DNA of 26,427 bases, from positions 1 to 26,427 of the IMG/VR virus record IMGVR_UViG_3300046787_000388, one strand, 5' to 3'. Shown piece after piece: positions 4-25,772 of the stretch; within the stretch, counting starts at the first letter, position 1; the number at the start of each line of letters is the position of its first letter. The position numbers were made by a program, and so were the translations under genes. The notes beneath the pieces are model-generated. The model did not search any database, was not told where the DNA came from, and worked only from the letters and a program-made list of their open reading frames with translations. Origin of the DNA: a virus.

Positions 4-669
4 ATGGACGCTTCTAAATATAATTCTACTTTAGAGTTTTGGATAGAAAAGTGTGGAGGTGATATAGAAGAAGCAAAACGATTATATAAAGATCGCCAAG
101 AAACGTTTAGTAAAAGGAAGTGCGTCGAGAAGCATGGAGACGAAGAAGGATTAAAAGTATGGCAAGAGCGACAGGAAAAGTGGTTAGAAACTTTAGATGC
201 CAAGAGTGATGAAGAGAAATTAGAGATTAATAGATTAAAGGCGAAAGGAATACAAAATAGTGGTCGGTCATATTCAAAAATCTCACAAGAATTATTTGTT
301 AAGATATATGACAAAATTCAAGGAGATTATTTGGTTAGATTTGCTACATTAAGAGGTGATGGAATAGTAAAAGATACAGGGGAAAATAATGAATATATGG
401 TTAATACTTTACAAGGAAATGTACGGTTTTTAGATTTTTATGCGCAAGATTTGGAAGGTAATAAATATAATATTGAATATGATGGGGATTTTTGGCATAA
501 TAACAATAATTACAAAGGAAATGTGGAGAGAGATAGTATTCGCGAGGAGCAAATCATTGAAACGCTTCCAGACATTAAAATTCTCCATATAAAAGAATTC
601 GATTATAAAGCAGATCCTGAAAAAGCGGTTAAAGAATGTTTGGAGTTTTTAAATGCAAGTACTGGATGA
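4..669 (+). CDS. Vsr-like free-standing homing endonuclease in the first terL fracture
   Basis: The 221-residue product is probably a site-specific DNA endonuclease that spreads the split-intein insertion. Residues 138-216 look like the very-short-patch-repair (Vsr)/PD-(D/E)XK type of nuclease: D144 in FLDFY, then E158-x-D160-G-D162-F-W-H165 and R176-D177 form an E-x-D...H...D pattern. Residues 8-62 hold a charged helical section with two related stretches (KDRQETFSKRKC and ERQEKW) of the kind seen in phage homing endonucleases, likely DNA-binding. The gene lies directly before a C-intein, and its 3' end overlaps the middle TerL gene by 17 bases while supplying that gene's ribosome site (GGAG at 642-645). 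The ATG at 4 is the first possible start in the window; the frame is open to base 1, so the true start could lie upstream. The Vsr-like call is by motif only. Confidence 0.78.
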   Translation: MDASKYNSTLEFWIEKCGGDIEEAKRLYKDRQETFSKRKCVEKHGDEEGLKVWQERQEKWLETLDAKSDEEKLEINRLKAKGIQNSGRSYSKISQELFVKIYDKIQGDYLVRFATLRGDGIVKDTGENNEYMVNTLQGNVRFLDFYAQDLEGNKYNIEYDGDFWHNNNNYKGNVERDSIREEQIIETLPDIKILHIKEFDYKADPEKAVKECLEFLNASTG

Positions 670-1006
670 TAAATTTACAGATATAATACATATTCATGAT
701 TATGAGATATGGACAGACAGTGGATGGGAAGAAGTTTCTGCTGTATGTAAAACTATCGAGTATCAAGAATACATATTAACATTAGATGGTTATCGGTTAA
801 TATGTGCAGATGATCATATTGTATTTTGTCAGAATGATGAGGAAAAATGTGTAAAAGATTTAACAGTAGATGATTTCGTACAAACTGAGGAAGGACTAAG
901 AAGAGTTATATCTGTAGAAGTTACAGATTCTTATAGTCAGATGTACGATGTTCAGGTTGATTCTGAAAAACATGCATATTATACAGATGGGATACTTTCG
1001 CATAAT
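653..1006 (+). other. C-terminal half of split intein 1 (P-loop insertion site)
   Basis: These 118 residues contain a block B-like motif (ICADDHIVF, residues 50-58, with the A-x-x-H form of T-x-x-H), block F (MYDVQVDSEKHAYYTDG, 97-113) and block G (ILSHN, 114-118) with the penultimate His and terminal Asn needed for Asn cyclisation. The +1 extein residue is Thr119. No block A is present, so block A must be on a separate upstream polypeptide. The break therefore lies before block B, as in the atypically split TerL inteins. There is no room for an internal endonuclease domain; the endonuclease is the separate gene upstream. Confidence 0.92.
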
Positions 1007-1660
1007 ACAACGACCGCAGGTATATATGCACTATGGAGAGCGTTGTATAGTAATATAAAGATGAATATTTATATTCTCTCAAATAAGGGAGAATCTGCAA
1101 AAGACTTCTTAAATCGTATTAAGGAAGTGTATTCTGATTTAGCGCCACATTTAAAGAGAGGAATTATAGAATGGAATAAAACTTCTATAGTTTTTGAGAA
1201 TGGTACTGCGATACATACTAGTACGACAACACCAGACTCTATTAGAGGACGATCAGTATCTCTTCTTATTCTTGATGAGTTTGCGCACGTAAGACCTGAG
1301 GTGGCAGATCCATTCTGGACATCAGCACAACCTACTGTAGCGTCTGGTACAGCACAGATCCTTATTATCTCTACACCGAATGGACAAACTGGTCAATATT
1401 ATGAATTGTGGAGAGGTGCTGAAATCGGATTGACGGATCCAGAAAAGGGTAATGGATTTAGACCATTTAGAATTGAATGGAATGAACCTCCGGGGCGAGA
1501 TGAAGAGTTTAAGAGAAAGATGATAGCAGAAACATCAAGAAGAATTTTTGCGCAAGAATATGCATGTCTTGGGTCTGATACTTATATAAATATAAAAGAC
1601 AAGTTTACGGGCGAAGTACATCGAGTCCGTATAGGAGATTTGTATGTCAAAGGCGATTAA
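653..1660 (+). CDS. terL: Terminase large subunit, middle piece (C-intein 1 + ATPase extein + N-intein 2)
   Basis: This 335-residue polypeptide is the middle third of a T4 gp17-like packaging motor. Residues 1-118 are the C-terminal part of a split intein ending in SHN. Residues 119-304 are extein beginning TTTAGIYALW, the sequence expected just after the GK of Walker A. The extein carries the Walker B/catalytic carboxylate motif SLLILDEFA (D208, E209) and the coupling motif ISTPNG (about 241-246). Residues 305-335 begin with Cys and form the N-terminal part of a second split intein. The fragment therefore has to be spliced at both ends. The start is fixed by ATG 653 with GGAG 7 bases upstream, inside the preceding endonuclease gene; the end overlaps the next endonuclease gene by 17 bases. 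It is not a degraded gene: the extein is continuous with the following TerL piece and motifs are intact. Confidence 0.93.
   Translation: MQVLDDKFTDIIHIHDYEIWTDSGWEEVSAVCKTIEYQEYILTLDGYRLICADDHIVFCQNDEEKCVKDLTVDDFVQTEEGLRRVISVEVTDSYSQMYDVQVDSEKHAYYTDGILSHNTTTAGIYALWRALYSNIKMNIYILSNKGESAKDFLNRIKEVYSDLAPHLKRGIIEWNKTSIVFENGTAIHTSTTTPDSIRGRSVSLLILDEFAHVRPEVADPFWTSAQPTVASGTAQILIISTPNGQTGQYYELWRGAEIGLTDPEKGNGFRPFRIEWNEPPGRDEEFKRKMIAETSRRIFAQEYACLGSDTYINIKDKFTGEVHRVRIGDLYVKGD
1565..1657 (+). other. N-terminal half of split intein 2 (31 residues)
   Basis: The last 31 residues of the middle TerL piece start with the catalytic Cys1 (CLGSDTYINI) and continue through FTGEVHRVRIGDLY, the usual end of intein block A, then stop. 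The junction EYA/C lies where T4 gp17 passes from the ATPase to the nuclease domain. The very short N-part resembles the roughly 25-residue N-intein of the known AceL-TerL split intein. The partner C-part begins at 2533. Confidence 0.92.
1585..1592 (+). promoter_or_regulatory. Candidate T4-type late promoter inside N-intein 2
   Basis: A perfect TATAAATA lies 51 bases upstream of the HNH endonuclease ATG (1644), within coding sequence. It could give the endonuclease and the last TerL piece their own late transcript. In AT-rich coding DNA an 8-base match can be accidental, so confidence is low. Confidence 0.35.
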
Positions 1661-2552
1661 TGATATATGTAAGATATGCGAGTGTGATGTTCAACATATG
1701 GTATTCCACGTTAAAAAACTACACGGATTAAATTTAAAACAATATTATGATAATTATATTAAGAGCAGTGAAGAGGGAAGCTGTTCTATGTGTGGGAATG
1801 AAGTAGGTTATCAGGGATATTACAAAGGTTATCCTAAATATTGTCGTAAATGTTCTAATAAGAGCGAAGAAAAAAAAATTAAAAGTGCTAAGTCTTGGGA
1901 AAATGTTGATCGCAATCAGCAACAAAAACGACGGGAAGAAACTTGTATGAAAAAATATGGAGTTAGGCATAATTTTTTGACTAAAGAATGTACCGAAAAA
2001 CGATGGGAAACTTTAAATGGTAATAAGGAAGAAATTAATGAAAAACGTAAAAAGTTTTGGAGCGACCCTGATAATGTAGCGAAGGTAGGCGAGACTAGAA
2101 AAAATACTTTTTTAGAGAGATATGGAGTTGAGAATTCGATGCAGTTAGATACTGCATATCAAAATATGAGAAAGACTATGGAGTCTACTGGTAAGTGGGC
2201 GAGTAAAGAAGAAAAATCAGAATTAGAGTGGTACGGTAGACAAGTTAGAAGAATATCATTGAGTCATTATGATGAATTATATAAAAAATGGGATGGTAGA
2301 TGTTACTATACAGGAGAGATATTAGTAAATAATGAACAATATAGGGAAGTTCATGGAGAAGATATAACTTTTAATAGTAATGATAAACAACCTACAGTAG
2401 ATCATAAAATATCTATCAAGTATGGATTTGATAATAATATACCAGAAGAAGTAATAGGAGGGATAGATAACCTATGCATTTGTGGAAAGGGAGTAAATAG
2501 TAAAAAGAATTATTTAACAGAAGAGGAGTTTCGTGAAAAATACCAGATATGA
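1644..2552 (+). CDS. Zinc-finger HNH homing endonuclease in the second terL fracture
   Basis: The 302-residue product has three parts. Residues 9-40 form a Ros/MucR-like C2H2 finger (C9-x2-C12...H22-x4-H27 followed by GLNLKQYYDNY). Residues 47-70 form a four-Cys zinc ribbon (C47-x2-C50, C67-x2-C70). Residues 100-180 repeat a KYGV/RYGVEN motif typical of DNA-binding regions of phage homing endonucleases. The C-terminus (216-290) is an HNH-type nuclease: TVDHKISI (D253, H254), IDNLCIC (N276) and NSKKN (285-289). It belongs to a different nuclease class from the endonuclease at 4-669, although the layout is the same. AGGAG at 1633-1637 sets the ATG. It overlaps the flanking TerL pieces by 17 and 20 bases, which suggests coupled translation. 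Cleavage of the intein-free terL allele is inferred, not shown. Confidence 0.82.
   Translation: MSKAINDICKICECDVQHMVFHVKKLHGLNLKQYYDNYIKSSEEGSCSMCGNEVGYQGYYKGYPKYCRKCSNKSEEKKIKSAKSWENVDRNQQQKRREETCMKKYGVRHNFLTKECTEKRWETLNGNKEEINEKRKKFWSDPDNVAKVGETRKNTFLERYGVENSMQLDTAYQNMRKTMESTGKWASKEEKSELEWYGRQVRRISLSHYDELYKKWDGRCYYTGEILVNNEQYREVHGEDITFNSNDKQPTVDHKISIKYGFDNNIPEEVIGGIDNLCICGKGVNSKKNYLTEEEFREKYQI
2522..2528 (+). promoter_or_regulatory. Ribosome-binding site fixing the GTG start of the last TerL piece
   Basis: AGAGGAG lies 4 bases before the GTG at 2533, inside the 3' end of the HNH gene. It supports independent translation of C-intein 2 plus extein starting at 2533. Confidence 0.7.
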
Positions 2553-2859
2553 AATAGAGACTCCTTATGGGTTTGTAGATTTTGATGGTATTAAGCAACT
2601 ACCAACAAAACAGATGTTACATAGAGTAACTCTTAATAATGGCACGTATTGTGATGTTACCTATAATCATGAATTTGTTGTTAATGGTATATCGGTAAAA
2701 TATAGTTCGTTGAAGAAAGGTGATCAGTTAGAGACGACAGATGGTTTGTTGGAAATACAGTCTTTAATATGTTTAGAAAAAGAAGAGTACGTGTATGATG
2801 TTTTGGAGGTTAAAAATAAGGATCATTCGTTTTATGGTAATGGTATAGTATCTCATAAT
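2533..2859 (+). other. C-terminal half of split intein 2 (109 residues)
   Basis: Block B is seen as DVTYNHEFVV (residues 41-50, with the T-x-N-H tetrad), block F as YVYDVLEVKNKDHSFYGNG (86-104) and block G as IVSHN (105-109) with His108-Asn109. The +1 residue is Cys110. The arrangement (about 30-residue N-part, about 105-residue C-part, extein CDFLG) closely resembles AceL-TerL, including the insertion point SHN/CEFLG as I recall it. Confidence 0.92.
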
Positions 2860-3657
2860 TGCGATTTTTTAGGATCATCATCTACGCTTATAAATGGCGA
2901 GGCATTGGAACGATTATCTCATATGATAAGAGAACCATTTAAGAAGTTTGATAAGTTTGATGTATGGGAAGCGCCTCAACCTAATAAGATATATGCTATA
3001 GGATGTGATGTTGCGATGGGTGTAGGTAGGGATTATAGTGTTATTCAGGTAGTGGATATTACCAATCCTATAAGATTTAAACAAGTTGCGGTATTTGCGG
3101 ATGATTATATTAAGACTTTAGATTTTACATTTAAAATCAATGAAATAGGTAGGATATACAATTATGCATTTTGTATAGTAGAAAATAATACTTATGGTGC
3201 TCAAATATGTCGAGATTTGTGGAATGATTATGAATATGAATGGTTATTTTTTGAGAAAGGCAAGAAAGAGAAGGGGGTAAATGCAAATAGGAAGACGAAA
3301 GTAAATTCAAACGCTGCATTAAAAGAATATATTGAAGAAAATCGTTTAGTTATTAATGATCAGAAAACTTTGAAAGAGTTAGAAGGTTATATTGAGATAA
3401 CTGAGGATAAGTATGGGTGTGAAGGGGAAGAATCTCATGATGACCGAGTAGATGCTTTGAGATGGGTGTGTTATTTTTCAATATCGGATTATTGGCGAGA
3501 TTTGGAAGATTTTATTAGAGAAGAGAGAGGAATAGTTAAGGGTGACTTTGTAGAATTAACTATTGGAAAAGAGGAAATATTTGAACCAGTAATATTTAAT
3601 TCTGGAGATGATATTAATAGAAAAGAGATAGATGAGGATGGTCTAATTTGGGGATAA
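2533..3657 (+). CDS. terL: Terminase large subunit, C-terminal piece (C-intein 2 + nuclease extein)
   Basis: The 374-residue product starts with a 109-residue C-intein and continues as 265 residues of extein beginning CDFLGSSSTLI, which lines up with FEGTSGTLI of T4 gp17. The extein is the RNase H-fold nuclease domain that cuts the DNA concatemer. The metal-binding acidic residues are visible as D159 (IGCDVAMG), E217 (CIVENNTYG) and D303/D304 (SHDDRVDAL). The extein sequence after the P-loop in this and the middle piece totals 451 residues, close to the corresponding part of T4 gp17 as I recall it, so nothing is missing. The start is GTG with AGAGGAG upstream. It must be joined to the middle piece by trans-splicing. 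Confidence 0.93.
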   Translation: MKNTRYEIETPYGFVDFDGIKQLPTKQMLHRVTLNNGTYCDVTYNHEFVVNGISVKYSSLKKGDQLETTDGLLEIQSLICLEKEEYVYDVLEVKNKDHSFYGNGIVSHNCDFLGSSSTLINGEALERLSHMIREPFKKFDKFDVWEAPQPNKIYAIGCDVAMGVGRDYSVIQVVDITNPIRFKQVAVFADDYIKTLDFTFKINEIGRIYNYAFCIVENNTYGAQICRDLWNDYEYEWLFFEKGKKEKGVNANRKTKVNSNAALKEYIEENRLVINDQKTLKELEGYIEITEDKYGCEGEESHDDRVDALRWVCYFSISDYWRDLEDFIREERGIVKGDFVELTIGKEEIFEPVIFNSGDDINRKEIDEDGLIWG

Positions 3658-5645: not shown

Positions 5646-6188
5646 ATGAGTTGGAATTTAAATAACTTTCGAACAAATGTCAAGGCAATTGCTCTAAATC
5701 AGTATTTTATGATTGAGATCCCAGAGGTTGGAGACGTTCAAAAAATTACGGCTTTAGCCCGTACTACTGATTTGCCCGCAATGGTGCATGAAACTACTGG
5801 CGTTCCTTATAGAGGACTCGACATGAAGATTCAGACTAAGGTAACGTTTAGTGATTGGAATGTAACCTTTTTGTGTGAACAAGATCATGATCTAAGGACG
5901 AAGATGTTGACATGGCAAGCTAAGATGTATAAGTTAGATTCCGCTGCGAATAGACCACATGATGAGTATAAAGTTGATAATGTATCGGTGTCAAAGGTGG
6001 GGTATGATGGCGCGGTTATCCCTAAGACTACATGTAAATTTTTCGGGTTGTTTCCTTCTTCTGTAGGTCCGGTATCTTTGGATCAAGCTGGTGGTACTCC
6101 TGATACTTTTGATGTTACATTTACTTATGATTATTTTGTTCCTGCTGACGGATCTATTGCTGAATGGAGTGGTGGAGCTTCTTCTTAA
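5646..6188 (+). CDS. gp19: Tail tube protein, paralog 1 (gp19-like)
   Basis: The 180-residue product is the likely main tube subunit forming the inner DNA channel. It shows the gp19-type pattern: NQYFMIEIPEV near the N-terminus, a central VTFSDWNVTFLCEQDHDLRTKM segment (about 75-100), and FFGLFPSSVGPVSLDQAGG followed by FDVTFTYDYF (about 133-165). Residues 1-20 (SWNLNNFRTNVKAIALNQYF) are nearly repeated in the next gene. It has the best ribosome site of the three tube genes and its own late promoter, so it is the most likely abundant subunit; the remaining two may be minor tube, completion or variant subunits. Confidence 0.88.
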   Translation: MSWNLNNFRTNVKAIALNQYFMIEIPEVGDVQKITALARTTDLPAMVHETTGVPYRGLDMKIQTKVTFSDWNVTFLCEQDHDLRTKMLTWQAKMYKLDSAANRPHDEYKVDNVSVSKVGYDGAVIPKTTCKFFGLFPSSVGPVSLDQAGGTPDTFDVTFTYDYFVPADGSIAEWSGGASS

Positions 6189-6216: not shown

Positions 6217-6726
6217 ATGGCATGGAATTTAGCAAATTTCAGAGAGAACATAAAATCTATAGGATTAAATCAATACTTTGAAATTAATTTTGATGGCGTT
6301 GAGCATCTTAATGGATTTGATAGTGATCAGTTGACGGCTCTTTGTCGAACTACTGAACTTCCTGCAAAAGTATTAGAGACTCAGAATGTAGCGTATTATG
6401 GCGCTGATTATAAAATAGCGTCTAGAGCGACATTTAATGATTGGACGGTTACTTTTTTAGATGCTATTTTGCTTAGATCTAGTTTTGTAACATGGTGTGA
6501 TAAAGTATATGATATATCTAAATTGAAGATAGAAAATGATCATACAAAGTACAAAACTGATTCAGTTACTGTAAAAAAAACGTCAATTGAAAAAGAGGCG
6601 TCTACTATAAAATTTTACGGATTATTTCCTTCTTCTGTAGGACCAGTGAATTTTGATCAAAGTGGCGGGACTCCTACAACGTTTGATGTTACGTTTTCTT
6701 ATGATTTTTTTGTGACCGAAAAATAG
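6217..6726 (+). CDS. Tail tube protein, paralog 2 (gp19-like)
   Basis: The 169-residue product is a clear paralog of the preceding protein: AWNLANFRENIKSIGLNQYF at the N-terminus, RTTELPAKVLET, a TFNDWTVTFLDA segment, and FYGLFPSSVGPVNFDQSGGTP near the C-terminus match one by one. The start at 6217 is fixed by this alignment. The ribosome site is weak (AAGG near 6199-6202, about 14 bases from ATG), and no late promoter is seen in the 28-base gap, so it is probably translated from the upstream transcript at a lower level. It may form a specialised tube ring or alternate with paralog 1. Confidence 0.85.
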   Translation: MAWNLANFRENIKSIGLNQYFEINFDGVEHLNGFDSDQLTALCRTTELPAKVLETQNVAYYGADYKIASRATFNDWTVTFLDAILLRSSFVTWCDKVYDISKLKIENDHTKYKTDSVTVKKTSIEKEASTIKFYGLFPSSVGPVNFDQSGGTPTTFDVTFSYDFFVTEK

Positions 6727-6774: not shown

Positions 6775-7341
6775 GTGGCGGATACGCAAAAAGGGTTTGA
6801 GTTACTTAAGTTCGGTGAAAGAACTAAGGATGGATTTGCACGAGCATATCAGTTTGCGATTAATATTAGGTCCCCCAACGATAAAAAAGGCGATGAAGAA
6901 TATTATACGACATATTGCGAGTCGATGACATTACCTCAGAGAATGTATGATACTAAAGAACTTGAGTTTTCATACGGAAAACCTAGTATAAAAATTGCAA
7001 CACAGGTTAGATTTAATAATTGGTCGGTGACTTTTAGGGATATACCGGGGTTACAACTGCGCACGGATATGCTAGAGTGGCAAGAGCTTATTGTTAATAC
7101 GACAAAAGGAAAAATGATGTATAATACCCCTAAAGATTATAAATCTAATGACTCTACAGCAAAAATAAAATTATCTCCTAGTGGAGGCGGTGATGAGAAA
7201 AGTTTAGGTATGGCTATATATAGATTTTATGGATTATATCCAGCCGATGTTAGTTCTATTACATTTTCCCATTCTGATCAAAGTTTAGTGACATTTTCGG
7301 TAGATTTTGCGTATGATTTTTTTACAGTAGATCAACAATAA
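6775..7341 (+). CDS. Tail tube protein, paralog 3 (divergent gp19-like)
   Basis: The 188-residue product is more distant from the first two but keeps the fold markers: ESMTLPQRMYDTKEL, VRFNNWSVTFRDI (about 80-92), LRTDMLEWQELI, and a C-terminal FYGLYPADVSSITFSHSDQ...FSVDFAYDFF. The start is GTG 6775 with GAGG 8 bases upstream; TTG 6773 is out of frame. It has its own late promoter. It lacks the SSVGPV motif of the other two, so it may be a tube-terminator, completion or tail-tip subunit instead of a shaft subunit. Confidence 0.78.
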   Translation: MADTQKGFELLKFGERTKDGFARAYQFAINIRSPNDKKGDEEYYTTYCESMTLPQRMYDTKELEFSYGKPSIKIATQVRFNNWSVTFRDIPGLQLRTDMLEWQELIVNTTKGKMMYNTPKDYKSNDSTAKIKLSPSGGGDEKSLGMAIYRFYGLYPADVSSITFSHSDQSLVTFSVDFAYDFFTVDQQ

Positions 7342-7350
7342 GGAGTATAT

Positions 7351-8196
7351 ATGAGTAATGAGTTATTGAAGCAGTTTCAGGCGATGTCGAGAGATGTGCC
7401 AGATTCTAAATTTACATTGCCCGGATCGGGGGAAGATATTTATTTTGTACCATTTACAACGAAGGATCAAAAAGCGTTGTTAAAGAGTATGGAAAAGGAG
7501 GATTTTGATTTAATACAAGAAGCATTTGATAATGTATTAAAAAAGTGCGTGACGAATGCTAATTTTGACCCAAAGAATCTTTATCCAAAGGATAGAGAAT
7601 CGCTTTTAATTGCATTAAGAAAAGAATCTGTAAATGATCAATTTACACATTATTGGAAATGTGAAAATGAGGTATCTAAAGTTAATGAGAATGGAGAAGA
7701 GATAAAAGACGAAAACGGAGAAAAAGTTAAAGAGACTTGTGGTGGTGAAAACAAGAAAGTTATCTCTTTAAATGAGTTGGAAATGAAGTCTTTGCAAAAA
7801 ATGGATTTTAATAAAGAAGTAGCATTGGAGGATAAAAGTAATTGTTTTCTTTTGTTAGATATGACAAAGAGAAAAGATGAGTTAGCTGTTATGAAGTATA
7901 CAAAAAAGAATTCTGGAGGAATAAAGGGATTGAGTAGAACAGAACTTTTATATGCAACATTAGCGTCATTTATTTCTGGATTGCGGATAGGTGATCAAGA
8001 AACCAAAGATTTGACTTTGGAAGATCGTATTACTATCATAGATGGATTAACATTAAAAGACCGTAGAAAGATTGAAGATTATATTACATCATTGGAAAGT
8101 CATGGATATGATTTAACAATAAAAGAATGTAAATGTTCTAAGTGTGGACATGAAGATGAACAAAAATTAGAGTGGATCTATTTTTTCGCCGTGTAA
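7351..8196 (+). CDS. gp26-like tail/baseplate assembly protein; likely frameshifting tail chaperone (short form)
   Basis: The 281-residue product lies between the tube genes and the tape measure gene, the position of the tail assembly chaperone in many tailed phages. Residues 20-50 (FTLPGSGEDIYFVPFTTKDQ) resemble the opening of the T4 gp26-type baseplate hub family. Potential metal ligands are C103 with C129 (YWKCEN...ETCGG) and a C-terminal C-x-C-x2-CG cluster (CKCSKCG). The start is fixed by TAAGGAG overlapping the previous stop. Three codons before the TAA lies T TTT TTC (8181-8187), which would allow -1 frameshifting into the next reading frame and give a 355-residue product. gp26 hub subunit and lambda G-like chaperone are both possible; position and slippery site favour a chaperone role. 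Confidence 0.62.
   Translation: MSNELLKQFQAMSRDVPDSKFTLPGSGEDIYFVPFTTKDQKALLKSMEKEDFDLIQEAFDNVLKKCVTNANFDPKNLYPKDRESLLIALRKESVNDQFTHYWKCENEVSKVNENGEEIKDENGEKVKETCGGENKKVISLNELEMKSLQKMDFNKEVALEDKSNCFLLLDMTKRKDELAVMKYTKKNSGGIKGLSRTELLYATLASFISGLRIGDQETKDLTLEDRITIIDGLTLKDRRKIEDYITSLESHGYDLTIKECKCSKCGHEDEQKLEWIYFFAV
8181..8187 (+). promoter_or_regulatory. Candidate programmed -1 frameshift site
   Basis: In the zero frame the codons are TAT TTT TTC GCC GTG TAA, so T TTT TTC is a perfect X XXY YYZ heptamer with the correct phase. After a -1 slip the ribosome reads TTT TTT CGC CGT and continues to 8417. The heptamer is 6 bases before the stop codon. No strong downstream hairpin is obvious; only a 4-bp ATAC/GTAT stem at 8206-8216 was seen. 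Confidence 0.6.
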
Positions 8197-8417
8197 TGAT
8201 GGGTGATACGACGTATTTTGCGGTATGTAATGAGGAATGCTCTTTGTGGTATTTTTCAGAACGTTCTAGTTTGACTAAAATGGATACAGATGCAATGTAT
8301 CCTTATGAGCGAGGAATGACTTTAGATCTATTTAAAACATATGATGAACATATAGAACATAACAGAAAGGAACAAATGGCAAAAAAAAGCGGAAAAGAAA
8401 TCAAAACCGCTTGGTGA
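8196..8417 (+). CDS. -1 frame extension of the tail assembly protein (T-like domain) or coupled small gene
   Basis: The reading frame is open from GTG 8172, through the slippery site, to TGA 8415-8417. It has no Shine-Dalgarno sequence of its own. It can be reached either by -1 frameshifting at 8181-8187, giving a 355-residue fusion, or by re-initiation at ATG 8196, which overlaps the upstream TAA as TAATG; the coordinates given use that ATG. The encoded part is about 73 residues, with C-x3-C (FAVCNEECSLWYF), an aromatic stretch, and a charged helical C-terminus (DEHIEHNRKEQMAKK). No known domain is recognised. In lambda, the analogous T domain is only made as the fusion and helps load tube subunits on the tape measure. 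Confidence 0.6.
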   Translation: MMGDTTYFAVCNEECSLWYFSERSSLTKMDTDAMYPYERGMTLDLFKTYDEHIEHNRKEQMAKKSGKEIKTAW

Positions 8418-20882: not shown

Positions 20883-23800
20883 TTGGGTAATGAAATAAAG
20901 GTACTTGACGGAGAACTTCGGGAAGGTAATACCATCGAGTTATATGTTGATTTTTCTTCTGACTTCGCATCCCATCTTGCAGTCATAAAAAAATGGTATG
21001 TGTTTTTTGAGAGAAATGTAAAGTATAATCCTGACGACGATGCTTATTATTTTGAAGAACCTTATTATGGTAGTATTTTCGAAGCAACTGATACTGACAC
21101 TATTCCCATTACAAATTTACAACCGGGAAGATTGTTCTGTTGGTTTGAATATAGAGATTATAGAGGGGTTTGGCATACATTAAAACAAATATTTAAAGTA
21201 AAACCTAAATTTCAGATTACTGCTCCCGTAGAGATTATAGAAGGAGAACAAGTTACTTTTAAGGTAACAACTCCTTCCGTATTAGATACAAGGGCTGTAT
21301 GGTTATTTAATAACAATGGCGAATATATAATTAGTAATAATGTTTCTAAAACCTTTTCAACAGACGGTTATTTCCCTTATAATTTATATATTGAATATGG
21401 TTACAATAAGTATCTTGATGAAACTTTTATTAATTGGGAATCTAATCCTTCTAGTAAATTAGTAGGTGTTACTGGAGGTGGTATTTTTGGTGGTGAAGGC
21501 GTTCAAAGGTGGTTTGAATCTTTTACCGAAAGTGTGTCTGGAAATTATTTAGTAAAATATGATTTAACTAAAAGTATCGCATTAGATTTTCAGTTAGATC
21601 ATGGTTTTGATGACCAAAATGGCGCTCCTCTTTTAGTTACATTTAAAGATTTGTCTTCGTATGGGGAGTTAGGATTTGACACGCCAACTCATAGATTGGA
21701 GTATGTAGAAATTGCTTTCGGAGATGGAGAAATTATAAAGAAAACTGAAATTAATTTTGAACAAAATAAAATTTATAATAATAGCGGAACGTACACTGGT
21801 TCTTATATTGTGCATACTCTGCATTCTTTGTCTGGTAGTAATATAGAATATCGACAGAGTATAAGTAAAAACTTTGAAGTCAGTGTTAATCCATTTTTTG
21901 ATAGATGGTTCAAGGATCACACCCAAGAGTCGTTATTTAATAGTCAAGGGTTTAATGATATAGCTAAAGGATGGGGTCTACAGATGGATCGTCTGTATAA
22001 CGATGCAAAGGATTTTATCGAGAGTATTGATGTCGAAAAAATAAATGATAGTTTTGTTAAAAGTTTCTTTAATACGTATGGAGATTTTCCTGAAATTGCT
22101 GAAAAAGTAGGATTTAAAAGTTTTACCGATGGACGCGACGATAAATTTTCTTTTTTCAATGATTATAATTTTTTTGATAGATTGGAAAAACGGACTATTA
22201 CTCCAGAAGAAAAAAAAGAATTTATAGACTATGTTCGGGATAGTATTAAAAGTTTACAAAATAAAGGAACCCCTAGTTCGGTTGAACGTGAGATTAAAAG
22301 ATTTAGATTATTAGGAACTTTTGTTGAGTTATGGATTACAGATTATAGTAAAAAACAGACAAAATTTAGCGACAATGTGTTTGTTAATAATAAAAAAACA
22401 GAAACTGGATTGACGTATAGAAATGTTTCAACTCCTAGTTCTGATAATGTGAACGTTCCAATTGGAAATAATAAATATACTCCATATATCGAAGTAAATA
22501 CTATTGAAGATAGTGTCGCATATCATTATACAGATGAATCTGAGATTAGGATTATAGATGGCGTTGAATATGCAGTGTTTAATAAACCAAATAATGGTGT
22601 TGTTAAATTTCAACAAAGTAGTTATACTGTAGCAGAAACTGCTGGAAGTATTACAGTACCTGTTCTTAGAAGTGGTTCTTTTACTGGAAAAGTGTCGGTG
22701 AAATATGCTACTACGGTTGGAACTGCCAATGATAGATCTGATTATTTTGCTGTTAATGGAGAATTGGTATGGGAAGATGGGGATTCTACTTCTAAGTCAA
22801 TTACGGTTAAATTAATAGATGATTCTGAGTACGAAGCACAGGAAACTTTTGCAATTACTTTGTATGATCCTAAAGGCGGGGCGACTTTAGGCAGTAAAAA
22901 TTCAACGATTATTACCATTACTTCGGATGATCCTGTAAGGTATGGACAATTACAATTTACTCAATTATTATATGAGGCGAATGAGGAAGATGGATTTGTA
23001 GATATTGAGGTTAGAAGAGTAAATGGTTATGATGGTATAATAACAGTAGATTACAGCACAAGTGACGGAACGGCTTTAGTCGGAGAGGATTATTTACAAG
23101 CTACTGGTACGTTGACATGGGCGGATAAAGATACTGACAATAAAACATTTAGAGCATATCTTATAAATGATGTTGAGCGTGAAGGCAGTGAAACTATTGA
23201 GTTGGCATTAACTAATGCCACTGGAGGAGCCACTTTAGGATTTAGAGAGTTTGCCACTATTTCTATTGTGTTGAATGATGTTCCAGAAGTAGGTACCATA
23301 CAGTTTGAAAATTTAACTTCCGCTGTATTGGAAACTATGGGTGAAATTCAGATTGTGGTGAAAAGAGTTGGTGGTACTTTAGGTGTTGTCACTGTTGAAT
23401 ATGAGACTAGAAATGATACCGCTATTGCGGGAATACATTATAGTTCTGTAATGGGTACTCTTACATGGAATTCTGGTGAAAATGATGACAAGGTAATAAC
23501 GATACCTATTGTTGATGATAGTGATAATAATGAAGATAGATTATTTAGTGTATTACTTAGAAATCCAACAGGAGGGGCTAATTTAGGAGAAAGCACGCAT
23601 GTTGTTAGTATACAGAATGATGAGGCGGAGAATAATGGTGTTATTCAATTTCAAAATACAGTTTATAATGTAAATGAAGAGGATGGTTCTGTCATACTAG
23701 GATTAACCAGAACGGGCGGATTTACTGGTATTGTTTCTGCTAGATATTTTACGGAGAATGGAACCGCGACATATGCTGATTATGAACCATCTTCCGAGTA

Positions 23801-25772
23801 TGTAGTATGGTTTAATGGGGATTCATTAAATAAAGGAATATCCATAGATATTCTTAATAACAATGAATATACAGGAGTTAGAACATTCTCTGTTACTTTA
23901 TCCGATCCTACAGGAGGAGCGACCATAGGAACAAATTCTACAGCTTTTGTTAATATTACAGACGACGAGGATCCACAGTATGGCATACTTAGTTTTGTTA
24001 ATTCGCAATATGTTGTTAGTGAACAAAGCGCCTCATCTGCGTTAGGAGATGGAGATTTTAGTAAGGTATCTGTCGGCGTTCAGAGAACTGGAGGATTCGA
24101 TGGGGCAGTTTCTGTGGACTACGAAATTGTGGCGTCTAGTGCCACAGAAGGTGTTGATTATTATGCGGATGCATATGCAGGTACATTAACTTGGGCAAAT
24201 GGCGAATTTGATATAAAAAGTTTTGAAATTCAAATATTAGAAGATTCTATATTTGAAGATGATGAAGTTATAAATGTATTTCTAAAAAATCCTGTTAGTG
24301 CTGTTGTAGGATTATCCGCATCCATTGTTACAATAGAAGACAATGAGAATGGAGAATTTAGATTTTCATCATCAATTTTTTCTGCAAATGAGGCCATATC
24401 AAACATAACTACAACTATTGAGCGTTATAATGGTAAACAAGGTTTGGTAACCGTAGACTATATTACTATGGCAGGTACGGCTTTAGAAGGAGTAGATTAT
24501 ATAAAAACTCAAGGGACTTTGAGTTGGGCGGATCAAGATAATGCTCCTAAAAATGTAATTATTCCGTTGATAAATGATGGGTTTAAAGAAGGAACCGAAA
24601 CATTTTATATTCAATTGTCTAACCCCACGGGAGGAGCAGCGTTGTCTACTCCTATATCAGCGTCTTTAAGTATTGTTGATGATGAATTTACTTCTGACAA
24701 TGGCGTATTAAAGTTTGAATCCTCATTATATTCCGTGACAGAAAATGCATCAACCGTGCAGATTGTTGTTACAAGAGAAGAGGGCAGTAGTGGTAACATC
24801 ACTGTAGATTATGCTACAGCTAATGGAACTGCTATTGCGGGGACGCACTATTTAACTAAAAGCGGAACATTGGGATGGGCCGCTGGCGATAACTCGTCTA
24901 AAAGTTTCTTTGTTACAATTCTCAACAATTCAGAATATGATTTTGCTTCTCCTAGATCCTTTAAGATTTCATTGAGCAATCCTTCTGGTGGTGCGCTAAT
25001 TGTTATTGGTGAAACGACCGTAAATATTACCGAAGATGACGTATATACAGAGAAGGTGTGGTATTTTGATGGTATAGATAACAGAGTAGATTTATCGAGT
25101 CAAATTAAACCGTATTCAAGTTCCAATCAGGCATATGCAATAGGGTTTTGGGCTAATTTTTATACATTGAGTGATGGTGGAACAGTATTTAAAATTTATG
25201 ACGAAACTAATCCAGCATACAATATTTTAGATATTTCGAAAGGATCGGATTTAACATTTACCGTTGGAGGTAGTGGAGTTGGAGTTGACGCTACTGAACT
25301 TACGGTATCTGGTATTAGTGGTAATCAATATTATTTTACATGGATACAAGATATTTCTGGTGATGTAAAAGTGTATGTTGCTCCGGAAAATGGAACTCTA
25401 AGTGCTGGATATTCAGATACTTATACTGCAAATATGAGTTCTTCTGAAAATTATACGAGTACGTTGGGTGCCTATTTTAATGGTTCTTCTTATAGTGATT
25501 ATTGTGAAATGGCTGTGGCATGGTTTGGATATTGGGAATTTTCAACTTTGCCTACAGTAGGGGTTTTAACCGCAATCCGCGAGGGAGCGTTTAATGGTGG
25601 TCAGATTCCTGTAGACTTAACATTAGAGGACACTCCTCCTAACATATGGTATAGATTTGGCAATACAACAGGAGATGCTATTACTAATAGTAGCGGAGGG
25701 TTAAAGGATTATATAGGAAGCAATGATGCAAATCCTTTTAATTTTTCTTCTGGGGACGAGACTGACATATGA
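20883..25772 (+). CDS. Giant gp7-like baseplate wedge protein with seven Calx-beta domains and lectin-like C-terminus
   Basis: The 1629-residue product starts at TTG 20883, one base after the gp6 stop. Residues 1-335 contain Ig/PKD-like beta domains (YVEIAFGDGE...NNSGTYTGSYIVHT near 276-318). Residues about 337-500 (FFDRWFKDHTQESLFNSQGF to GTFVELWITDYSKKQ) look like the gp7/gpI-type wedge region. Seven tandem Calx-beta domains follow, starting near residues 572, 688, 804, 919, 1034, 1157 and 1274, each about 115 residues with the pattern VxYxTxxGTAxxGxDY...GTLxWxxGdxxxK...I.dDxxxE..E.F.v.L.NPTGGAxLG. Residues 1388-1629 resemble a concanavalin/LamG fold (WYFDGIDNRVDL, YAIGFWANFY, WYRFGN). Calx-beta domains often bind Ca2+; surface or host contact is a reasonable inference. 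T4 gp7 is about 1030 residues and has no such repeats. Wedge assignment relies on order. Confidence 0.78.
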   Translation: MGNEIKVLDGELREGNTIELYVDFSSDFASHLAVIKKWYVFFERNVKYNPDDDAYYFEEPYYGSIFEATDTDTIPITNLQPGRLFCWFEYRDYRGVWHTLKQIFKVKPKFQITAPVEIIEGEQVTFKVTTPSVLDTRAVWLFNNNGEYIISNNVSKTFSTDGYFPYNLYIEYGYNKYLDETFINWESNPSSKLVGVTGGGIFGGEGVQRWFESFTESVSGNYLVKYDLTKSIALDFQLDHGFDDQNGAPLLVTFKDLSSYGELGFDTPTHRLEYVEIAFGDGEIIKKTEINFEQNKIYNNSGTYTGSYIVHTLHSLSGSNIEYRQSISKNFEVSVNPFFDRWFKDHTQESLFNSQGFNDIAKGWGLQMDRLYNDAKDFIESIDVEKINDSFVKSFFNTYGDFPEIAEKVGFKSFTDGRDDKFSFFNDYNFFDRLEKRTITPEEKKEFIDYVRDSIKSLQNKGTPSSVEREIKRFRLLGTFVELWITDYSKKQTKFSDNVFVNNKKTETGLTYRNVSTPSSDNVNVPIGNNKYTPYIEVNTIEDSVAYHYTDESEIRIIDGVEYAVFNKPNNGVVKFQQSSYTVAETAGSITVPVLRSGSFTGKVSVKYATTVGTANDRSDYFAVNGELVWEDGDSTSKSITVKLIDDSEYEAQETFAITLYDPKGGATLGSKNSTIITITSDDPVRYGQLQFTQLLYEANEEDGFVDIEVRRVNGYDGIITVDYSTSDGTALVGEDYLQATGTLTWADKDTDNKTFRAYLINDVEREGSETIELALTNATGGATLGFREFATISIVLNDVPEVGTIQFENLTSAVLETMGEIQIVVKRVGGTLGVVTVEYETRNDTAIAGIHYSSVMGTLTWNSGENDDKVITIPIVDDSDNNEDRLFSVLLRNPTGGANLGESTHVVSIQNDEAENNGVIQFQNTVYNVNEEDGSVILGLTRTGGFTGIVSARYFTENGTATYADYEPSSEYVVWFNGDSLNKGISIDILNNNEYTGVRTFSVTLSDPTGGATIGTNSTAFVNITDDEDPQYGILSFVNSQYVVSEQSASSALGDGDFSKVSVGVQRTGGFDGAVSVDYEIVASSATEGVDYYADAYAGTLTWANGEFDIKSFEIQILEDSIFEDDEVINVFLKNPVSAVVGLSASIVTIEDNENGEFRFSSSIFSANEAISNITTTIERYNGKQGLVTVDYITMAGTALEGVDYIKTQGTLSWADQDNAPKNVIIPLINDGFKEGTETFYIQLSNPTGGAALSTPISASLSIVDDEFTSDNGVLKFESSLYSVTENASTVQIVVTREEGSSGNITVDYATANGTAIAGTHYLTKSGTLGWAAGDNSSKSFFVTILNNSEYDFASPRSFKISLSNPSGGALIVIGETTVNITEDDVYTEKVWYFDGIDNRVDLSSQIKPYSSSNQAYAIGFWANFYTLSDGGTVFKIYDETNPAYNILDISKGSDLTFTVGGSGVGVDATELTVSGISGNQYYFTWIQDISGDVKVYVAPENGTLSAGYSDTYTANMSSSENYTSTLGAYFNGSSYSDYCEMAVAWFGYWEFSTLPTVGVLTAIREGAFNGGQIPVDLTLEDTPPNIWYRFGNTTGDAITNSSGGLKDYIGSNDANPFNFSSGDETDI
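22596..25043 (+). repeat. Seven tandem Calx-beta domain repeats
   Basis: Units begin near 22596, 22944, 23292, 23637, 23982, 24351 and 24702. Shared landmarks are 'G.LxF....Y...E' at each start, 'V(D/E/K)Y.T..GTA' in the middle, 'GTLTWA' or similar, and 'L.NPTGGA.LG' plus 'I.DD' at the end. Units 1-4 and 6-7 are 115-117 residues; unit 5 is about 123 with an insertion (SASSALGDGDFSK). Sequence identity is moderate, so these are old duplications. Confidence 0.88.

Follow-up and report, generated by a model that had tools for sequence, protein, structure and literature searches.

A probable programmed -1 frameshift producing a tail assembly chaperone pair of the gp26/gp51 family in an uncultivated myovirus lineage

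Known chaperone pairs and the locus in the window

The tail assembly chaperones G/GT of phage lambda and E/E' of phage P2 each consist of a short protein and a long form with an extra C-terminal domain, which arises by a -1 slip near the 3' end of the short gene. The gene lies between those for the tail tube and the tape measure protein. By analogy, the locus described here seems to be built in the same way, with a probable tape measure gene downstream. The P2 slippery site is T TTT TTG, one base away from the T TTT TTC of this locus.

A 2010 review of the T4 tail describes gp26 and gp51 as hub assembly chaperones, gp51 being essential and of unknown function (PMC3004832). The gp51 of cyanophages has about 20% of the usual length and a similar C-terminus (Sullivan et al. 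2010, PMC3037559); the text of that paper mentions no frameshift. Vladimirov, Gautam and Davidson (2022, Virology 566:9-15), cited in PMC10885494 and PMC12846349, identified the chaperones with which T4-like phages assemble their tails. According to the passage in which PRFect cites that work, some T4-like phages do not frameshift but encode the short form and the fused long form in separate genes (PMC10885494), and the Adele paper cites it in connection with poly-T slippery signals in the short-form genes of T4-like phages (PMC12846349). Given the 2022 study and the papers citing it, the mechanism in the window is not new in kind; a frameshifted chaperone is already known, including in relatives of T4, and the window adds one more case. 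T4 itself has no slippery site because its short and long forms are encoded by two genes, 26 and 51. T4 gp26, T4 gp51 and the window protein all belong to PF12322, but the window comes from a distant uncultivated lineage and its first reading frame at this locus (ORF1, 7351-8196) is longer.

The window is the whole stretch of DNA analysed, 26,427 nucleotides of one strand (IMG/VR record IMGVR_UViG_3300046787_000388, positions 1-26,427). Its features around the junction are listed in Table 1. The chaperone gene has a tail tube gene upstream (phrog_45), and the downstream gene is called the tape measure gene from its position and length; Pfam-type and phrog profile searches with the latter's product returned no family match. 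Three tandem tail tube-like paralogues are also present in L109, the nearest relative of the window that was found.

Table 1. Features of the chaperone locus in the window
Feature	Position	Strand	Basis
Three tail tube paralogues upstream	5646-6188, 6217-6726, 6775-7341	+	third: phrog_45, E 3e-22; other two: mutual similarity and order
AGGAG, Shine-Dalgarno-like, of the chaperone gene	7341-7345	+	sequence read
Short-form tail assembly chaperone gene (gp26 family, 281 aa)	7351-8196	+	PF12322, phrog_150, predicted fold like HK97 gp13
Slippery heptamer T TTT TTC, X XXY YYZ phase	8181-8187	+	sequence; heptamer at the same place in 102/109 gp26-family loci
-1 frame extension, putative gp51-type C-terminal domain of the long form (76 aa + stop)	8187-8417	+	HMM matches; phrog_634, E 0.046
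TAATG, short-form stop overlapping a -1 frame ATG	8194-8198	+	sequence; also in L109
Probable tape measure protein, 1233 aa	8434-12135	+	position and length

Two other regions of the window were noted. The large terminase is split within 4-3657: ORF 653-1660 carries an intein C-terminal end followed by Terminase_6N, and ORF 2533-3657 has an intein C-terminal end before Terminase_6C. A free ORF with a weak DUF7487 match (1644-2552) lies between the two parts and a nuclease-like ORF (4-669) lies ahead of them. The arrangement looks like a terminase gene broken up by split inteins, with homing endonucleases as free-standing genes. At 20883-25772, adjoining the baseplate genes, the window encodes a protein of 1629 residues that contains seven Calx-beta stretches (E 1e-124).

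Junction anatomy and the short form

The 3' end of ORF1 reads ATC TAT TTT TTC GCC GTG TAA. The sequence-only reading had placed T TTT TTC in exact slippery phase two codons before the stop, with an open 81-codon -1 frame and a TAATG overlap, and all four points hold. Position 8181 is the third base of the TAT codon in the ORF1 frame, and two codons (GCC GTG) separate the heptamer from the TAA at 8194-8196. The -1 frame has no stop codon between 8160 and 8414 and terminates at 8415-8417; the 81-codon ORF listed in it begins at GTG 8172. It ends 16 bases before the next ORF start (8434). The first codon after a slip would be CGC at 8187, and the fusion would comprise 279 + 76 = 355 residues (...YFF-RRVMMGD...). 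A separate ORF beginning at the ATG at 8196 would encode 73 aa.

The ORF1 product matches PF12322 (T4 gp26/gp51) over residues 17-274 with an E-value of 5.5e-24 and 85.5 bits, which exceeds the curated cut-off of 24.5 bits. It also matches phrog_150, the T4 gp26 family, with an E-value of 1.7e-25. An AlphaFold2 model built from a 27-sequence alignment has a pLDDT of 83.9 and a pTM of 0.71. VIA-align 2, which re-aligns matches supplied by Foldseek and for which a Z below 8 is suggestive and not proof, aligned the model with 3fgx (Z 7.3, 88 residues, 4.6 A) and residues 3-94 of the model with HK97 gp13, 2ob9 (Z 7.1, 90/107 residues, 5.0 A, 11% identity); the third-best PDB row has a Z of only 2.6. 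In the Foldseek search against the PDB, HK97 gp13 ranked second, with no E-value significant. Both 3fgx and 2ob9 are treated as tail assembly chaperones (PMC9603447). A viral structure library returned T4-like baseplate hub proteins, and a gp26 profile gave chance matches only against PDB sequences.

The predicted fold is therefore suggestive of a resemblance to the tail assembly chaperone HK97 gp13. Compared with 2ob9, the window protein is longer by about 180 residues, including a cysteine-rich, zinc-ribbon-like part close to the end. The sequence-only reading had proposed that the locus might join gp26 proteins and tail chaperones. The link itself stands, given the fold and the HK97 gp13 match; its novelty does not, since T4-like chaperones had been identified in 2022.

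Conservation of the slippery site and of the extension

When the window's gp26 was used as a single-protein query, neither IMG/VR nor genome contigs yielded a relative; relatives were obtained via alignments and via the sheath protein. In this way 109 gp26-family loci were collected from phage records and IMG/VR contigs. In 102 of them the stop is preceded, at a distance of 0-2 codons, by an in-phase slippery heptamer: 97 have T TTT TTC, four T TTT TTT and one T TTT TTG. Conservation of the heptamer in homologs is the check that had been suggested for the frameshift, and its outcome is favourable. Clustered at 80%, 60% and 50% identity, the 102 loci fall into 69, 23 and 18 clusters, respectively; these cluster counts are fairer than the raw counts, which overstate independence because most of the loci are cyanophage-like contigs from the best 80 matches of one scan. 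The groups bearing the heptamer include cyanophages and vibrio, rhizobial, Aeromonas, Stenotrophomonas and Desulfovibrio phages. As a control, the other same-strand ORFs in the same loci, 95,893 codons in all, contain 22 in-phase T TTT TTN.

L109, the nearest relative found, shares 54% identity with the window in ORF1 and 67% in the extension; its junction reads TAT TTT TTC GCA TTG TAATG. L111, at 36% identity, reads GGT TTT TTT TTA ACG TGA; here T TTT TTT and the extension are kept and the C-terminus is different. The other aligned relatives are about 16-27% identical to the window's gp26.

The seven loci without the heptamer are T4, ZZ1, 44RR, EC-F2 and three Ackermannvirus-like loci, and they were grouped as T4-type, pseudo-T-even or Ackermannvirus-like. 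In T4, ZZ1 and 44RR, gp26 and gp51 are separate genes. The Ackermannvirus-like loci belong to Klebsiella phage Madison and Vibrio phages K474 and YC, of which only YC is assigned to the Ackermannviridae by its record. In these loci (L097, L099 and L102) a gp51-type extension follows gp26 in the -1 frame with no XXXYYYZ heptamer; the stretch concerned is the roughly 300 bases after the gp26 stop (L097 3304, L099 3223, L102 3211). The TAATG overlap is present in L099 and L102.

The extension is homologous across phage families. T4 gp51 is covered from end to end by its phrog_150 match and has a phrog_634 match at the C-terminus; in T4 gp26 the phrog_150 match reaches only to position 235. The presence of both matches in gp51 indicates that the two parts are fused in one T4 protein. 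T4 gp51 thus joins a gp26-like domain to the extension, and the shifted product of the window appears to be built alike. Extensions in the -1 frame match phrog_634 in Synechococcus phage S-B68 (3e-19) and Aeromonas phage 65 (2e-12); the match of the window's own extension is weak (E 0.046). An extension HMM built without the window and L109 detected the window (E 0.0034), L109 (4e-4), L111 (9.5e-11) and T4 gp51 (1.4e-5), E-values being for a nominal database of 1000 sequences, and did not match T4 gp26. The probable homology of the window's extension leans on L109 and L111 as bridging relatives. Between the window and L109, changes in the extension fall 21, 17 and 36 times on the first, second and third codon positions of the -1 frame, and this third-position excess suggests that the extension behaves as protein-coding in that frame. 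Its codons comprise 28 identical, 23 synonymous and 25 non-synonymous.

Since ORF1 belongs to the gp26 family, has a predicted fold like HK97 gp13, and gp51 combines a gp26-like domain with the extension, the assignment of the ORF1 product as the short form (like lambda G) and of the 355-residue shifted product as the long form (like GT) is supported.

Possible stimulators near the site were also considered. In the relatives as a group, folding just 3' of the heptamer is more stable, with a mean z of -1.65, than at control offsets, where it is -0.05 to -0.73. A stimulatory hairpin 3' of the window's heptamer is not convincing (z about 0 for 60 nt and -1.7 for 70 nt), so the slip in the window may rest on the heptamer alone. 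A Shine-Dalgarno-like GAGGG 5' of the heptamer is common in cyanophage-type loci; no role is claimed for it, because it falls on conserved Glu-Gly codons and the window lacks it. In Aeromonas phage 65 (L002, 6750-6910), a long-range pairing, spotted by eye, may form between ACCCTCGTT, just 3' of the gp26 stop, and its complement AACGAGGGT, close to where the extension ends.

Competing readings and the proposed mechanism

The junction could instead yield two separate proteins, with the 73-residue C-domain made by termination-reinitiation at TAATG and the heptamer irrelevant. An ATG overlaps or adjoins the stop in the window, L109 and L111, as TAATG itself in the window and L109, and the extension is annotated as its own gene in public records of relatives. 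However, the stop-ATG overlap is missing in 91 of the 102 loci that all carry the heptamer, in Acidovorax phage ACP17 no ATG lies close to where the extension starts, and both parts are fused in T4 gp51. A Shine-Dalgarno-like sequence was looked for before the extension's ATG (8196) in the window and none was found. The sequence-only reading had held against its own proposal a heptamer lost while TAATG was kept; the opposite was found, with the overlap in just 11 of the 102 heptamer loci. Separate proteins are thus very unlikely. It is also rather unlikely that the junction in this lineage serves both -1 frameshifting and TAATG-coupled reinitiation to give a short form, a fused long form and a free C-domain. 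If it did, the Ackermannvirus-like relatives would have lost the frameshift route and kept reinitiation.

Another explanation is that the T run is kept merely for a Phe-Phe pair in the protein and that the overlap with the -1 frame is incidental. Phe-Phe is present in nearly all members, and T4 gp26 has it at this place as well, spelled TTC TTT. However, of the 229 other Phe-Phe pairs in the same loci only 10 are spelled T TTT TTC, and the base preceding the codon pair is T in 102/102 loci, via seven codons (AGT, TCT, GAT, AAT, GCT, TAT and GGT). The T TTT TTG variant of the Rhizobium phage alters the amino acid, giving Phe-Leu (TTT TTG), and is still slippery, and the groups without the heptamer are free to use other codons. 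A requirement for Phe-Phe is therefore highly improbable as the explanation. A sequencing or assembly error in the T run, which would make the true gene a single fused ORF, might be suspected because the contig is metagenomic and has a run of T at the junction. However, the same junction and frame relation are seen in independent isolates (Aeromonas phage 65, ACP17, S-B68, P-HM1, phiM7 and others), and the same junction in many environmental contigs. The isolates thus refute a homopolymer error, whose probability is negligible.

The best-supported reading, and the one first made from the letters of the window, is that the junction very probably makes a G/GT-type chaperone pair by programmed -1 frameshifting at T TTT TTC. 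This agrees with the observed junction anatomy, slippery-site conservation in 102/109 loci, homology to T4 gp26/gp51 and chaperone-like predicted fold. Both forms would be made from one start codon. The majority of ribosomes would read 7351-8196 and give the 281-residue short form. A minority, with Phe-tRNA on TTT in the P site and on TTC in the A site, would slip back one base onto TTT TTT (8181-8186) and continue in the -1 frame from CGC 8187, past the TAA, to the stop at 8415-8417. The product of the slip would be the 355-residue long form with its gp51-type C-terminal domain. As in lambda G/GT, the long form may bind the tape measure protein via this domain and collect short-form subunits around itself, which would let the tube polymerise to the right length, and both forms would be absent from the finished virion. 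We infer the slippage, its frequency and the contact with the tape measure protein from lambda and P2; the two forms may also have to be made in a fixed ratio.

The finding identifies a probable tail chaperone pair for an uncultivated and divergent lineage of myoviruses, and shows that the gp26 family keeps its slippery site very strictly across diverse phage groups. In public records the extension is often annotated as a separate small gene or omitted, and the genes should be joined. The comparison also indicates that the frameshift is replaced by two genes in T4-type phages and by some other route in Ackermannvirus-like phages.
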